A stretch of 64,000 bases of DNA. Origin: Rhodocyclaceae bacterium. GTDB lineage: Bacteria; Pseudomonadota; Gammaproteobacteria; Burkholderiales; Rhodocyclaceae. Shown here one piece after another: positions 14,122 to 58,184 of the stretch (positions are counted from its first letter, which is position 1; every line of letters starts with the position of its first letter). The stretch spans positions 1-64,000 of the forward strand of contig JAGTRP010000008.1 of assembly GCA_018261935.1 (NCBI GenBank), written 5' to 3'. The translations under genes were made by a program, and so were the position numbers. The notes beneath the pieces were generated by a model. The model saw only the letters and a list, made by a program, of their open reading frames with translations. It had not been told where the DNA came from and searched no databases.

Positions 14122-14430
14122 TGATTGGTTTTGAATAAGAACCTTAAATCAAAGGACAACATAGATTAAGTACGGAACAAGTCTGTGGAGAAACGATATT
14201 TTCCGTTTGTCAACAGTGACTTGTATTCCAAAATGCCCCGTGGACAAGCGCCGTTTTAAGCTGTGGAGCAAACTCGAACAACTTTTCCACATCGGGAAAA
14301 ACCGCCTGTAATCCCCAAACGCCCGACAACTTTCCCACAGACTTGTCGACACCCCCGTCCGGAGGGATCCGAAACCCCGGAAAACCGCCCCGGAGGACGA
14401 AAAAATGTTCACAGGCTGTGGATAACTTAC
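14122..14430. other. oriC: Putative replication origin (oriC) between rpmH and dnaA
   Basis: The 591-bp gap from 13978 to the chosen dnaA start holds this block. An AT-rich stretch at 14129-14170 could be the unwinding element. DnaA boxes follow: TTCTCCACA on the minus strand at 14192-14184, TTTTCCACA at 14283-14291, TTTCCCACA at 14331-14339 and a perfect TTATCCACA on the minus strand at 14425-14417. Weaker copies lie at 14239-14247 and 14262-14270. Divergent gene orientation and the rpmH/dnaA context fit a bacterial oriC. The region 14431-14550 shows no gene and only a tentative dnaA promoter. Confidence 0.75.
14127..14190 (+). repeat. Left copy of an inverted duplication flanking dnaA
   Basis: This stretch matches the reverse complement of 16111-16173 at about 53 of 63 aligned positions with one 1-base gap. 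The block 14161-14190 against 16140-16111 is 27/30 identical and contains the extended DnaA box. The part 14127-14153 corresponds to the dnaN start and its first codons, with the ATG changed to AAG. It looks like a decayed inverted copy of the dnaN 5' region. Confidence 0.75.
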
Positions 14431-14494: not shown

Positions 14495-14568
14495 TACCCC
14501 ATAGATTCAACACATTAGTTTTACCGCTGCAGCCTGGTGCTGATGGGCGGGAAGGAGTTTTGTTGGCT

Positions 14569-15945
14569 GTGTCCGGATTCTGGGAGTCCTGTCTCTTACG
14601 TTTTGAGCAGGAACTGCCTTCGCAACAATTCAATACCTGGATCAAACCGTTGCGGTTGGAAGGCGAGGACGCGCCCCAGGACGGCCTGCGCCTTGTCGCG
14701 CCCAACAGCTTCATCCTGAAATGGGTCAAGGACCGTTACCTGGGCCGGATCGAGGAATACGGGCAGACGTTCTTTTCGGCGCCGGTCTCCATTGCCCTGT
14801 GCATTGCCGAACGGAAGGCGGCCCCTCCCCCGGTGCGCAGCGAAAGCAAGCCGGCCGGCGGCAAGAGCGAAGCCGAGGCGGCCTCCGCGCCGGCCCGGCA
14901 GCCGGCCAGCCGGCCTTCCAGCTACGAGAAATCCCGGCTCATCTACGCCTTTACCTTCGACAACCTGGTGGTGGGCAAGGCCAACGACCTGGCCCGGGCC
15001 GCGGCCGTCCAGGTGGCGAACAATCCGGGCGGGGCCTACAACCCCTTGTTCATCTACGGCGGTGCCGGCCTGGGCAAGACCCACCTGATGCACGCCATCG
15101 GCAACCAGATCCTGGAACAGCAGCCGGAGAAGGTGGTGCGCTATGTCCACGCCGAGGACTACTACTCGGACGTGGTGCGGGCCTATCAGCAAAAGTCCTT
15201 CGACACTTTCAAGCGCCAGTACCGCAGCCTGGACGTCCTGCTCCTGGACGACGTGCAGTTCTTCAACGGCAAGAATCGCTCCCAGGAGGAATTTTTCTTC
15301 CTCTTCAATGCTCTTATCGAAGCGAAGAAACAGATCATCATCACCTGCGACACCTATCCCAAGGACATCAACGGCCTCGACGACCGGCTGGTGACCCGTT
15401 TCGATTGGGGCCTGACGGTGCAGATCGAGCCCCCCGAGCTGGAGATGCGGGTGGCGATCCTCAAGAAAAAGGCGGAAGCGGAAGGCATTCTGTTGAACGA
15501 CGAAGTGGCTTTCTTCATCGCCAAGCATCTCCGTTCCAATGTGCGGGAACTCGAAGGGGCCTTGAAGAAGGTGCTGGCCTATTCCTCCTTCCATGGCCGG
15601 GAAATTGCCCTCGACCTGACCAAGGAAGCCCTGAAGGATGTCATCGGCTCGGCCCGCAACGTCGGCATCGAGAATATCCAGAAGACCATCGCCGACTACT
15701 ACAAGATCAAGGTCGCCGATCTCTTCTCCAAGAAGCGCACCCGGGCCATCGCCCGGCCCCGGCAGGTGGCCATGTGGCTGTGCCGCGAAGTGACGACCCA
15801 CAGTTTCCCGGAAATCGGCGATGCCTTCGGCGGCCGGGACCACACCACGGTCATCCACGCGGTCAAGACCATCGACAGCCTGCGCACCAAGGACAACGAA
15901 TTGAACCATGACCTGCATGTGCTGATGCAGGTCTTGAAAGGATGA
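14569..15945 (+). CDS. dnaA: Chromosomal replication initiator protein DnaA
   Basis: About 458 residues. Domain I opens with SGFWESCLLRFEQELPSQQF. A variable Pro/Ala-rich domain II follows (about res. 90-125). Domain III has Walker A GGAGLGKTHL and Walker B LLLDDVQF. C-terminal domain IV has the DnaA-box-binding signature CREVTTHSFPEIGDAFGGRDHTTV. No ATG start exists. Candidates are TTG 14563 (5 bases after the AAGGAG ribosome site at 14552-14557) and GTG 14569 (11 bases); GTG is chosen because family members begin near SxFW. It is first in the dnaA-dnaN-gyrB series and is probably autoregulated through nearby DnaA boxes. Confidence 0.97.
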   Translation: MSGFWESCLLRFEQELPSQQFNTWIKPLRLEGEDAPQDGLRLVAPNSFILKWVKDRYLGRIEEYGQTFFSAPVSIALCIAERKAAPPPVRSESKPAGGKSEAEAASAPARQPASRPSSYEKSRLIYAFTFDNLVVGKANDLARAAAVQVANNPGGAYNPLFIYGGAGLGKTHLMHAIGNQILEQQPEKVVRYVHAEDYYSDVVRAYQQKSFDTFKRQYRSLDVLLLDDVQFFNGKNRSQEEFFFLFNALIEAKKQIIITCDTYPKDINGLDDRLVTRFDWGLTVQIEPPELEMRVAILKKKAEAEGILLNDEVAFFIAKHLRSNVRELEGALKKVLAYSSFHGREIALDLTKEALKDVIGSARNVGIENIQKTIADYYKIKVADLFSKKRTRAIARPRQVAMWLCREVTTHSFPEIGDAFGGRDHTTVIHAVKTIDSLRTKDNELNHDLHVLMQVLKG

Positions 15946-48558: not shown

Positions 48559-49449
48559 CTATTCCGTTTCACGTGAAACCTGCCCGAATGTCCCCTCCAG
48601 AAGGCGGCCGAGGCGATAGCCCGCCGTCGCCAGCCGCTGGTTGGCGACGGCCTGGGAGCGGGCCGCGAAGTCCGCAGTGATGGCCGGCAGCAGGCTGCCG
48701 GTGGCGGCGGGGTAGGCCGTTTCTCGGCTGAGTTCCCGGCTCTCCTTTTCCCACAGGGCCAGCGAGCCCTGGCGGGGCGGCTTCGGCTGGGACGCCAGGA
48801 GAGCGTCCGCCGCCCGCTCAAGGCGGGGGCCGCGCAACCAGGGCGGACCCGGCAGGTCGTCCCACCAGGTATGGAGGTTGGTGAAAGGCAGGCGGCGATT
48901 GAAGGGATTTTCGATTTCGAAGCGGTTGCCTCCTCCATCGTCCCGGCTGCCCACGTGCAGTGGCTGGTGGATGTCGGCCAGGAGGTGGATGAGCCAGGGC
49001 AGGGCGTAGGCCCGCTCCGCCGGCGGCGTGCCGGGGTTGCGCAGGAGGCGGGTCAGGCGTTCGAGCTGGTGGTCCAGTTCTCCATCCCGGACCTTATTGG
49101 AGAACTGATCCACGTAGTGCCAGTCTTTGTGGCGGGCCGTATCGGCCATGCCGGGAAAAGGGGGCGTTGGCGCTTCCCGCCCCTCGTCATGGAAGCGCCG
49201 ATCCTTGCGGATGTCGTCGGGCCAGGTGGAGGCTTCGAGGAAAGCGGTGTAGCCAGGGTTATCCCCGGCCTTGGCGGTCCACTTGCGGTAGTCGGGGTGA
49301 ATCTGCAGCAGGTCGGTGACCCGGTGCTGGGCGATGGGAGACATCTGGCGCCAGGCGATGGCCGCCACCAGGCGATGGCCGGCGGCGTTCCAGCCCCAGG
49401 CGGGCAAGGTCGTGAGCAGGAGGGCGAGGGCGGTCAAAATGCTTTTCAT
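48559..49449 (-). CDS. Secreted S1/P1-type zinc-dependent nuclease
   Basis: 296 residues. The signal peptide KSILTALALLLTTLPAWG precedes mature WNAAGH, where the N-terminal Trp and His are zinc ligands in S1/P1 nucleases. Further ligands are visible: STWPDD, HYVDQ, LIHLLADIHQPLHVG and NLHTWWDD. These enzymes degrade single-stranded DNA and RNA at the periplasm or outside. The frame runs open to 49716, but ATG 49449 gives the signal peptide. The last six codons contain parS-like site 2. It may be co-transcribed with speD. Confidence 0.92.
   Translation of the reverse strand: MKSILTALALLLTTLPAWGWNAAGHRLVAAIAWRQMSPIAQHRVTDLLQIHPDYRKWTAKAGDNPGYTAFLEASTWPDDIRKDRRFHDEGREAPTPPFPGMADTARHKDWHYVDQFSNKVRDGELDHQLERLTRLLRNPGTPPAERAYALPWLIHLLADIHQPLHVGSRDDGGGNRFEIENPFNRRLPFTNLHTWWDDLPGPPWLRGPRLERAADALLASQPKPPRQGSLALWEKESRELSRETAYPAATGSLLPAITADFAARSQAVANQRLATAGYRLGRLLEGTFGQVSRETE
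48566..48579. other. parS: parS-like centromere site 2 (within nuclease coding end)
   Basis: GTTTCACGTGAAAC, a perfect match to the ParB consensus 14-mer and a full palindrome. It encodes VSRET just before the nuclease stop codon. Confidence 0.8.
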
Positions 49450-54833: not shown

Positions 54834-55904
54834 GTGACCCGCCCCCACAACGATACCTTCTTGCGTGCGCTGCTCAAGCAGCCGACCGAGTACACCCCCC
54901 TCTGGCTGATGCGCCAAGCGGGCCGCTATTTGCCCGAATACTGCGAGACCCGCAAGCGGGCCGGTAATTTCCTCAATCTCTGCAAGACGCCCTCCCTGGC
55001 CTGCGAAGTGACCCTGCAGCCCCTGGCGCGCTACGACCTGGACGCTGCCATCCTTTTCTCCGATATCCTGACGGTGCCGGATGCCATGGGCCTGGGGCTC
55101 TATTTCGAGGAGGGCGAAGGGCCGAAATTCGAGCGTCCCCTGCGGGAGGAATGGGCTATCCGCGACCTCACGGCGCCGGACCCCAACGACCATTTGCGCT
55201 ACGTCATGGATGCGGTGGTGGAAATCCGCCATGCCCTGGACAACTCCGTGCCCTTGATCGGCTTTTCCGGCAGCCCGTATACCCTGGCCTGCTACATGGT
55301 GGAAGGCGGCAGTTCCAGCGACTTCCGGCACATCAAGGCCATGCTCTACGATCGTCCCGACCTGCTGCACCACATCCTGACGGTGACGGCGGATGCGGTG
55401 ACGGCTTACCTCAACGCCCAGATCGATTCCGGCGCTCAGGCGGTGATGATTTTCGATACCTGGGGCGGCTCCCTCTCGGCGGCGGCCTACCAGGAATTCT
55501 CCCTGAGCTACATGCAGCGCATTATTGCCGGCCTCACCAAGTCCAAGGACGGCGAGCGCGTTCCCTCCATCGTATTCACCAAGGGCGGGGGCCTCTGGCT
55601 GGAAAAAATCGCCGCCTGCGGCTGCGACGCGGTGGGACTGGACTGGACCATCGATATCGGCGAAGCCCGTCGCCGGGTGGGGGACAAGGTGGCCCTGCAG
55701 GGTAATCTGGATCCCAATGTGCTTTTCGCTTCCCCCGAGGTAGTGGCGGCCCAGGCCAAGCGGGTGCTGGACAGCTTCGGCCCCGGCGATACCGGCCATG
55801 TCTTCAATCTTGGCCATGGCATTTCCCAATTCACGCCGCCGGACAATGTATCCGCCCTGGTGGAAGCCGTGCATTCCCATAGTCGGATATTGCGTAAGCC
55901 CTAG
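54834..55904 (+). CDS. hemE: Uroporphyrinogen decarboxylase
   Basis: 356 residues, normal length. It shows the signature [17 protein letters not shown] near res. 24-40, [32 protein letters not shown], and [14 protein letters not shown] at the end. It decarboxylates uroporphyrinogen III to coproporphyrinogen III in heme synthesis. The GTG start at 54834 is followed directly by the conserved N-terminus. It stands alone, 114 bp after ntrX. Confidence 0.96.
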
Positions 55905-55915
55905 ATACAAACAGG

Positions 55916-55954
55916 GGGGCAGGGGCCAACTTATACACAGAGTTGGTCTGCCCC
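55916..55954 (+). terminator. Hairpin after hemE with a DnaA box in its loop
   Basis: GGGGCAG (55916-55922) pairs with CTGCCCC (55948-55954) and CCAACT (55926-55931) with AGTTGG (55941-55946), separated by a small internal loop. No T-run follows, so termination strength is doubtful. A consensus DnaA box TTATACACA (55931-55939) fills the loop. Confidence 0.45.
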
Positions 55955-55982
55955 GCCGGGTGCGGGCCCCTATCCCGCCGCG

Positions 55983-55996
55983 GTTTCACGTGAAAC
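55983..55996. other. parS: parS-like centromere site 3 (hemE-priA intergenic)
   Basis: GTTTCACGTGAAAC, perfect match and palindrome, extended by one pair to 55982-55997. It lies in a 297-bp gene-free gap. Confidence 0.82.
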
Positions 55997-56109
55997 CAGT
56001 AATGGACTGAAAAATCGAACCTTTTTGCCGCCGGTCCCGGTCAGTGCAAGGGCCGGAGGGGTCCGTGACGGAATCGTCCCGGCAAATCTTCCAACAGCAA
56101 TCCACAAAG

Positions 56110-56125
56110 TTATCCACAGATTTGT
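56110..56125 (+). promoter_or_regulatory. Perfect DnaA box upstream of priA
   Basis: TTATCCACA at 56110-56118 continues as GATTTGT, so the 16-base string matches the extended motif seen three times at the origin with one change. The priA start is 77 bp downstream. DnaA may regulate priA. The rest of the gap 55905-56201 holds a hairpin and parS site 3 and no gene that I can see. Confidence 0.6.
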
Positions 56126-56201
56126 CCCCGGACAAAAAATTGCTGTTTGCAGAAGGGCTTGCATGAGTTTTCAGAGAATCGACAGCAATACCCTGCGCTA
56201 A

Positions 56202-58184
56202 ATGCCCATTCTGCGAGTCGCCCTCGATCTGCCCCTGCACCGCTTGTTCGATTATGTGTCGGACGAGGCGGGGCATGGCGACGTCGGGCTGCGGGTCCGG
56301 GTACCCTTCGGCCGCGGGGAGCGCATCGGCATCATCCGGGAAGTCCGGGAGGATAGCGACTGGCCGGCGGAGCAGCTGAAGCCCGCCATCGCAATCCTCC
56401 GGGACCTGCCACCCCTGCCGGAGGATTTTTTCCGCCTCTGCGACTTCGCCAGCACCTATTACCAGGCTCCTATCGGGGAGGTCATCCTGCAGGCCCTGCC
56501 GGTCGGTCTCAAGCGCCTGGCGGCCCCGGAGCGCAGGGCCGGGCGCAGGACGGCGGCGGTGGCCACCGTGCCCGCCCCCGAGCTGACCGGCGAGCAGGCC
56601 GCAGCCATCGCCGCGGTCTCCCTGGGCGCCGGCTTCGCCGTCCATCTCCTGTACGGCGTGACGGGCAGCGGCAAGACCGAGGTCTATCTGCGCCTGATCG
56701 AAAAGGCTTTGGCCGCCGGCGGGCAGGCCCTGGTGCTGGTGCCGGAAATCAACCTCACCCCCCAGCTGGAAACCCGGGTCCGGGGCCGCTTTCCCGGCGC
56801 CGGAGTGGTCGCGCTCCACAGCGAACTGGCCGAGGCCGCCCGGGAGCGCCACTGGCGGGCCGCCTTGGAAGGGGAGGCGCAGATCGTCCTCGGCACCCGG
56901 CTGGCGGTGTTCACCCCCATGCCGCGCCTGGCCCTGATGGTGGTGGACGAGGAACATGACGCCTCCTTCAAGCAGCAGGACGGCATGCGCTATTCCGCCC
57001 GCGACCTGGCGGTCTTCCGGGCCCGGGACCTGGAGATTCCGGTGGTGCTCGGTTCGGCGACCCCGTCCCTGGAATCGTGGGCCAACGCCAAGTCCGGGCG
57101 CTACCAACTCCTGACCCTGCAGGAGCGGGCCAATGCCCAGGCCACCCTGCCGGCGGTCCGGCTCCTGGACACCCGCAGGATGGTGCTCCAGGAAGGCATC
57201 TCGGAGCCGGTCCTGGCGGCGGTGGCGCAGCGCCTGGAGCGGGGCGAACAGAGCCTGGTCTTCCTCAACCGCCGGGGCTATGCGCCGGTCCTGGCGTGCC
57301 CGGCCTGCGGCTGGATTTCCCATTGCCGGCGCTGCGCCGCCAACCTGGTGCTGCACTTGGCCGACCGGCGGCTGCGCTGCCATCACTGCGGCTTCGAGGT
57401 CCGGGTGCCCAAGAGTTGTCCCACCTGCGGCAACCAGGACATCCACCCCTTTGGCCGGGGCACCCAGCGCCTGGAGTCCTGGCTCCAGGAACACTTCCCG
57501 GAAGCCCGCATCGTCCGGGTGGACCGGGATTCGGTGAAGAGCCGCAAGCAGTGGGAGGCCATGCTGGAACGCATCCATGGGGGCGAAGCGGACATCCTGG
57601 TGGGCACCCAGATGCTGGCCAAGGGCCACGACTTCCCCAAGCTGACCCTGGTGGGCGTCCTGGGGGCCGACGCCGCCCTGTTCGCCGCCGATTGGCGGGC
57701 ACCGGAAAGGCTTTTCGCCCAGCTTATGCAGGTGGCCGGGCGGGCCGGCCGGGCCGAGCTGAAGGGCGAGGTGCTGGTCCAGACCCAGTACCCGGATCAT
57801 CCTCTCTACGGCGCCCTTGTCGCCCACGACTATCCCTCCTATGCAGCCACCCTTCTGGAGGAGCGGGAGCAGGCCGGTTTTCCACCGTACGCCTATCAGG
57901 CCATGCTGCGGGCCGAGGCTCCGGACATGGCGGACGCCATTGCTTTCCTGACCAGTGCCCGGGCGCTGCCGGTTGCCCAGGAGCATTCCGAGATCGCCCT
58001 CTACGACCCGGTCCCCATGCACCTGTCCAGGCTCGCCAATCTGGAGCGCGGCCAACTTCTCGCCGAATCGCCGTCCCGGCGCGCCCTGCAGACCTTTCTG
58101 CCGCAATGGCGGAAGGCGATCGAGGGCATCAAGGCGCCGGCCAAGCTGCGCTGGCATCTGGAGGTGGATCCCCTGGAATTCTAG
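56202..58184 (+). CDS. priA: Primosomal replication protein N' (helicase PriA)
   Basis: 660 residues. The N-terminal DNA 3'-end-binding domain begins RVALDLPLHRLFDYV. The helicase has Walker A GVTGSGKTEVYL, DEEHD box VVDEEHDASFKQ and GSATPSLES. A zinc-binding block with eight cysteines runs from CPACGWISHCRRC to CPTCGNQD. Motifs V-VI include GTQMLAKGHDFP and QVAGRAGR. It restarts stalled replication forks. A DnaA box and a parS-like site lie in its upstream gap, suggesting coordination with initiation and segregation. Confidence 0.97.
   Translation: MPILRVALDLPLHRLFDYVSDEAGHGDVGLRVRVPFGRGERIGIIREVREDSDWPAEQLKPAIAILRDLPPLPEDFFRLCDFASTYYQAPIGEVILQALPVGLKRLAAPERRAGRRTAAVATVPAPELTGEQAAAIAAVSLGAGFAVHLLYGVTGSGKTEVYLRLIEKALAAGGQALVLVPEINLTPQLETRVRGRFPGAGVVALHSELAEAARERHWRAALEGEAQIVLGTRLAVFTPMPRLALMVVDEEHDASFKQQDGMRYSARDLAVFRARDLEIPVVLGSATPSLESWANAKSGRYQLLTLQERANAQATLPAVRLLDTRRMVLQEGISEPVLAAVAQRLERGEQSLVFLNRRGYAPVLACPACGWISHCRRCAANLVLHLADRRLRCHHCGFEVRVPKSCPTCGNQDIHPFGRGTQRLESWLQEHFPEARIVRVDRDSVKSRKQWEAMLERIHGGEADILVGTQMLAKGHDFPKLTLVGVLGADAALFAADWRAPERLFAQLMQVAGRAGRAELKGEVLVQTQYPDHPLYGALVAHDYPSYAATLLEEREQAGFPPYAYQAMLRAEAPDMADAIAFLTSARALPVAQEHSEIALYDPVPMHLSRLANLERGQLLAESPSRRALQTFLPQWRKAIEGIKAPAKLRWHLEVDPLEF

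Follow-up and report, generated by a model that had tools for sequence, protein, structure and literature searches.

A conserved DnaA-IHF element before priA in a betaproteobacterial order, with a predicted datA-like role

Introduction

What does a cluster of DnaA boxes do in the short gap between hemE and priA, and does the parS site that lies among them belong to it? The question arises from a 64,000-nucleotide stretch of a Rhodocyclaceae chromosome (hereafter the window), which is contig C10 of a 4.06-Mb genome in 42 contigs (G000). A sequence-only reading of the window had described two DnaA boxes, one of them in a hairpin loop, and a perfect parS within 210 bp before priA, and had proposed a control point joining initiation, segregation, and fork restart, or a site similar in concept to datA or DARS. 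To our knowledge, how DNA sites control the ATP/ADP cycle of DnaA has been worked out in Escherichia coli only. Here, we compare the gap with those of relatives, with other loci of similar layout, and with the E. coli sites. The gap holds one copy of a predicted DnaA/IHF control element that is kept across the betaproteobacterial order. We consider it probable, on sequence comparison, that this copy is the origin-proximal member of a conserved pair and has a datA-like role, with a DARS-like partner at xseA.

Results

The gap spans 297 bp (55905 to 56201). It is preceded by hemE, encoding uroporphyrinogen decarboxylase (54834 to 55904, plus strand; Pfam URO-D, E 5.7e-134), and followed by priA, encoding the primosomal helicase (56202 to 58184, plus strand; Pfam PriA_3primeBD, DEAD, and PriA_C). 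Both DnaA boxes of the earlier reading are present where it had placed them. The distal one, box A (TTATACACA, 55931 to 55939, plus strand), has a position like that of datA box 2, and the proximal one, box II (TTATCCACA followed by G, 56110 to 56118, plus strand), is perfect and has the extended form TTATCCACAG. Strict TTATNCACA sites number four in the 64 kb, two of them in this gap and the other two flanking dnaA (~14560 to 15945); genome-wide there are 26, versus 12 in a reversed control. A DnaA box upstream of dnaA (14417 to 14425, minus strand) lies on the presumed oriC side of the window.

Three further parts had been absent from that reading. An IHF-type site (56000 to 56012, minus strand) lies at a conserved position 110 bp before box II; it is weak, with two mismatches to WATCAANNNNTTR. 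A degenerate DnaA box III (CAATCCACA, 6/8) occupies 56098 to 56106 on the plus strand. After 56118 are the remains of an inverted box I, whose place (56124 to 56132, minus strand) now reads GTCCCCGGA and scores 1/8, where relatives have, for example, TGTGGACAA. A known RNA family was ruled out as the identity of the element, as an RNA family search of the window matched one tRNA only. A search against a plasmid collection gave a short hemE match only.

We located PriA across the family and the order (61 genomes) and read the hemE-priA gaps. hemE is directly upstream of priA in 55 of the 60 loci read, and nearly all gaps longer than 200 bp carry two same-strand DnaA boxes spaced 173 to 190 bp apart (mode 176). 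The layout is fixed in sequence, strand, and spacing: box A comes first, then an IHF site, then boxes III and II in tandem, in many gaps followed by an inverted box I. Counted from box II (TTATCCACA), box III starts at −12 on the same strand, box I at +14 on the opposite strand, the IHF consensus at −108 to −110 on the minus strand, and box A at about −177. A scan of all offsets in same-family relatives (f1) gave −12 on the plus strand (6.3/8) and +14 on the minus strand (5.3/8) as the best positions, against means of ~2.0. In other families, −12 was again top on the plus strand, and +14 (3.8) was third on the minus strand.

An unbiased survey of 49 priA gaps, in which box II was chosen by the III/II pair only, recovered box II (at least 7/8) in 49/49, box III (at least 6/8) in 46/49, and box A (at least 7/8) in 47/48, with a perfect box A in 44/48. 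The IHF site, with at most one mismatch at the conserved position, was present in 41/48. Box I (at least 6/8) was found in 31/49 and was perfect in 4/49. Shuffled gaps gave 9% for II, 12% for III, 1.1% for A, 1.4% for IHF, and 0.3% for I. The sequence-only reading had named, as the result that would speak against it, the absence of both motifs from close relatives with hemE-priA synteny; the DnaA boxes and their spacing are kept order-wide together with that synteny.

The parS site did not fare in the same way. Its exact core, GTTTCACGTGAAAC, is present at 55983 to 55996, as had been claimed, within a palindrome (GGTTTCACGTGAAACC, 55982 to 55997) that is flanked by box A and the IHF-like site and differs from TGTTTCACGTGAAACA in the two outer bases only. 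The perfect core occurs twice in the whole genome, here and at 48566 to 48579, and not at all in the control. Perfect parS occurs somewhere in 48 of the 61 genomes, yet in the hemE-priA gaps read, sites with at most two mismatches were found in the window's own genome only; parS was thus ruled out as a part of the element. The gap copy resembles a ParB centromere in its exact 14-bp core and its origin-proximal region, but is lineage-specific and no part of the conserved element, a local ParB site that came to lie within it. Four parS sites, two perfect and two near-perfect, lie ~7 to 10 kb apart in the window (38721, 48566, 55983, and 63204) and form an ordinary origin-proximal parS cluster. 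The parS in the gap ends 2 bp before the IHF-like site, and ParB and IHF might compete there. The hairpin (55916 to 55954, plus strand), with most of box A in its 9-nt loop, is a real fold and better than shuffles (−15.2 kcal/mol, z −3.0). A hairpin loop encloses box A in 10 of 41 relatives' gaps, mostly weakly, and a functional hairpin was ruled out for want of conservation; it is possibly the end stem of hemE.

E. coli DARS1 and DARS2 (DnaA-reactivating sequences), datA, and oriC were read directly from NC_000913. DARS1 and DARS2 have boxes I, II, and III at start offsets of 14 and 12, with I inverted; the box order of DARS is described in PMC5742627. The III-II-I offsets of the element (12 and 14 bp) and its inverted box I are exactly the same. 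Its distal DnaA box, near −177 to −190, has a counterpart in a DARS2 box at −197, which we take to be box V, although the two are on opposite strands. The IHF site of the element is displaced by about one helical turn relative to that of DARS2 (108 to 110 versus 99 bp before box II). A scan of DARS2 in the same orientation put IHF sites at −99 and −83 with a 3-bp interval, in agreement with the footprinted IBS1-2, whose separation is likewise 3 bp (PMC4245941). Unlike DARS, which is found at mutH or uvrB, the element is at priA near the origin, and the window's copy has no box I.

The likeness to datA is one of spacing, and the comparison is with one E. coli locus. There, in the glyVXY-queG region, box 2 is 65 bp from the IHF site and the IHF site 97 bp from box 3, versus ~68 bp from box A to IHF and 97 to 98 bp from IHF to box III here. 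In both, same-direction boxes flank one minus-strand IHF site, and the location is origin-proximal and intergenic. The element differs in that a tandem III-II pair, usually joined by an inverted I, takes the place of the second box, that its neighbors are hemE and priA, and that the window copy's IHF site is weak. The suggestion of a site like datA or DARS in concept thus gains strong support from geometry, in both the III-II-I spacing (12/14) and the A-IHF-III spacing (68/97 versus 65/97). Published descriptions confine the DARS2 core to gammaproteobacterial relatives of E. coli (PMC4245941 and PMC8682772). The openly searchable literature, as distinct from subscription papers, yielded nothing relevant on DARS or datA in Betaproteobacteria, or on DnaA boxes at priA or xseA.

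Upstream of xseA is a sister element in which the III-II-I core is complete but a perfect box A is lacking. Among 30 xseA upstream regions read, II was present in 30, III in 25, and I in 29 (perfect in 14); the IHF site was present in 25/29 and a perfect box A in 0/29. The contrast between priA and xseA gives Fisher P values of 3e-17 for box A and 8e-4 for box I, which overstate the evidence because they treat genomes as independent when they are not; the box A contrast is nearly complete. The core at xseA is also oriented, relative to its gene, opposite to that at priA.

The two elements occupy different parts of the chromosome. In ten genomes with long assembled chromosomes, with the origin set at dnaA in most and at the skew switch in G040, the median position along the origin-to-terminus arm is 4% for the priA element and 62% for the xseA element, and the latter is farther out in nine of the ten. 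The priA element lies at no more than 18% of the replichore in 9 of 10 such relatives; in G040 it is 85% of the way to the terminus, unlike datA. By the same measure, E. coli datA is at 20%, DARS2 at 41%, and DARS1 at 66%. The window's element, ~41 kb from dnaA, has the origin-proximal, intergenic location of datA. Thus, the priA copy is near the origin and the xseA copy is mid-arm, as are datA and DARS in E. coli.

Set against this anatomy, the window's own copy is reduced. Boxes A and II are kept, III is weaker (6/8), the IHF site has its two mismatches in the right place, and I is lost. Its datA-type geometry remains (A to III 167 bp, A to IHF 69 bp), with an IHF consensus that is weak here and good in relatives. 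The three-box core of DARS (I inverted, 14- and 12-bp offsets) is lacking; as the core was tested and found incomplete, this copy must not be filed as DARS. At best, its sequence would fit a datA-like site or a DnaA sink, and it may be decaying. The xseA copy of the same genome (C4:210570, L220) has an intact core, an IHF site with no mismatches, III at 7/8, and I at 7/8; this xseA was identified by tblastn with a homologue that had been recognized by eye rather than by a family model, and the window's PriA was confirmed by Pfam.

Further copies are dispersed between genes of this genome, at C5:29095-29305 (L061/L221), C12:36038 (L062/L222), C30:18460 (L063/L223), and C33:178836-179031 (L064). 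They have a common spacer, GGCAAAGTAGGGAAA..CTTAG..TTTCC, and those on C5, C12, and C30 are identical in TTATCCACAGGAAATGTGGATAA. Element copies in the window's genome outnumber the two DARS of E. coli.

The core pattern CACA-N3-TTATCCACA-N5-TGTGGATAA occurs, with at most three mismatches, in 57 of the 61 genomes of the order and, with at most two, in 218 of 274 genomes sampled across the class; the controls gave no hits in either case. In an exact core scan of named genomes, the matches listed were almost exclusively gamma- and betaproteobacteria, including Pseudomonas, Legionella, Lysobacterales, Nitrosomonas, methanotrophs, and others; the two odd entries are metagenome bins, of which L294 has the hemW neighbor seen in gammaproteobacteria. 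The neighbors of 137 cores, whose gene names rest on clustering and reading of sequences, include priA in 29 cases (28 with the core upstream and in the same direction), xseA in 19, and hemW in 11. Both priA and hemW loci again have box A and the IHF site; in other gammaproteobacteria, box A is at about −189, roughly one helical turn further out, and full-core elements of these other lineages keep box A too. Full elements also lie downstream of hemW (L277, L278, L291, L294, L302, L303, L308, and others), with gltA as right neighbor in some. In these hemW-side elements, from Woeseiaceae and related gammaproteobacteria, the core is complete and box A is at about −190; most have the IHF site at −110. 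The hemW(-gltA) region is a third conserved home of the predicted element.

hemE was ruled out in favor of priA as the linked gene, the element being present without an adjacent hemE in G006 and G045. We favor priA because class-wide cores adjoin it with other left neighbors. Some short hemE-priA gaps have no element, and their genomes mostly have cores elsewhere (G014, G037, G042, G044, and G050).

Discussion

The assignment of this element family to DnaA-IHF sites of the datA/DARS class is well supported by its layout, and the window's site is most likely one of DnaA-state control or titration; the biochemical activity is predicted from that layout. In the mechanism that we propose, IHF would bend the DNA and thereby bring DnaA bound at box A into contact with DnaA at boxes III and II. 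As at E. coli datA, known for datA-dependent DnaA-ATP hydrolysis, ATP-DnaA would then be held and inactivated soon after the site, close to the origin, is duplicated. The xseA element, with its head-to-head I-II pair, would be the reactivating, DARS-like partner, and in the window's genome it is this copy (contig C4) that is intact. The split into two roles may be limited to this order, as full-core elements of other gammaproteobacterial lineages also retain box A.

Could the priA element instead be a reactivation site of the DARS2 type? ADP-DnaA would then sit head-to-head on boxes I and II, with IHF bending the flank, ADP leaving, and DnaA being recharged. The III-II-I geometry is identical to that of DARS1 and DARS2, the offset of IHF from its place in DARS2 is about one helical turn (DARS2 moderately tolerates a 10-bp shift), and box I is kept in 31 of 49 priA copies. 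Yet about one-third of priA copies, the window's among them, have lost box I, which the head-to-head pair requires, while xseA copies keep it, and E. coli DARS are mid-arm rather than near the origin. We therefore regard this reading as possible but not likely. Passive titration of DnaA, leaving its nucleotide state unaffected, is more doubtful. High-affinity boxes in any conserved cluster bind DnaA, and titration has been argued for in E. coli (PMC12371093), but passive titration has no need of a set position for IHF, of box orientation, or of the 12/14-bp spacing, and all three are conserved here.

That DnaA regulates transcription of priA (and xseA) through a conserved operator is a little less credible still. 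Of the 29 priA-linked cores found class-wide, 28 are directly upstream of priA and share its orientation, and the element stays with priA where hemE is elsewhere (G006 and G045). However, its distance to the gene ranges from 0 to 311 bp, the core at xseA points the other way, elements of similar layout lie downstream of hemW and, in one genome, 3′ of priA, and no promoter-like site was found in the window's gap. The variable gene distance, the elements at other genes, and the cores elsewhere in genomes with short, element-free gaps suggest that the element acts in trans, and it is probably not a plain priA operator. A cis link to fork restart is doubtful: similar elements are found at xseA and hemW-gltA, and element-free short gaps occur, yet most such genomes have cores elsewhere. 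The hub joining initiation and restart to segregation is unsupported, as no relative's gap has parS.

A chromosomal origin or backup origin in the gap is very improbable. The A+T-rich stretch of relatives, like the DnaA boxes and the IHF-type site, does resemble parts of oriC, but the GC-skew switch is elsewhere in G004 and G040, two of the three genomes read for it, which ruled out oriC at the gap: in G004 it is at dnaA, with priA 270 kb away, and in G040 it falls at a five-box cluster near 1.7 Mb, with hemE-priA at 0.14 Mb and its element intact. On contig C1 of G040, dnaA is at 1.282 Mb, the skew switch at ~1.66 to 1.82 Mb, and the five DnaA boxes at 1695210 to 1695399. The origin of this genome appears displaced by ~0.4 Mb from dnaA, at the DnaA cluster.

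Returning to a datA-like priA copy paired with a DARS-like xseA copy, we tentatively suggest an evolutionary route, although we think it less likely than not to be the actual one. The ancestral gamma/betaproteobacterial element might have been a single two-way DnaA switch that combined a DARS core (III-II-I) with a datA-like half (box A-IHF-III/II), often before priA. Copies would then have specialized, the priA copy keeping the inactivating half and the mid-arm copy (at xseA in this order) the reactivating half, with E. coli datA and DARS2 as later descendants or parallels.

The presence of a core with this geometry in ~80% of the gamma/betaproteobacterial genomes sampled, together with a second conserved site and complementary box loss, would open the evolution of DnaA-site control to testing in dozens of species. 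It would also allow prediction of which site does which job in bacteria without prior knowledge. For the window, a cluster of motifs becomes a defined, testable element, set apart from an unrelated parS.

DARS-type cores repeatedly adjoin repair or restart genes: uvrB (DARS1, bioD-uvrB), mutH (DARS2), priA, and xseA. This neighborhood may be due to chance or to a shared cell-cycle logic. The element is also found in multiples. In G043 (C1, ~5094449 to 5095123; L020/L156/L185), the hemE-priA element occurs twice in tandem in an 845-bp gap, and in G045 (C2:588840-590089; L157 and L226), where hemE is not adjacent, four DARS-like cores lie ~180 to 500 bp apart before priA.
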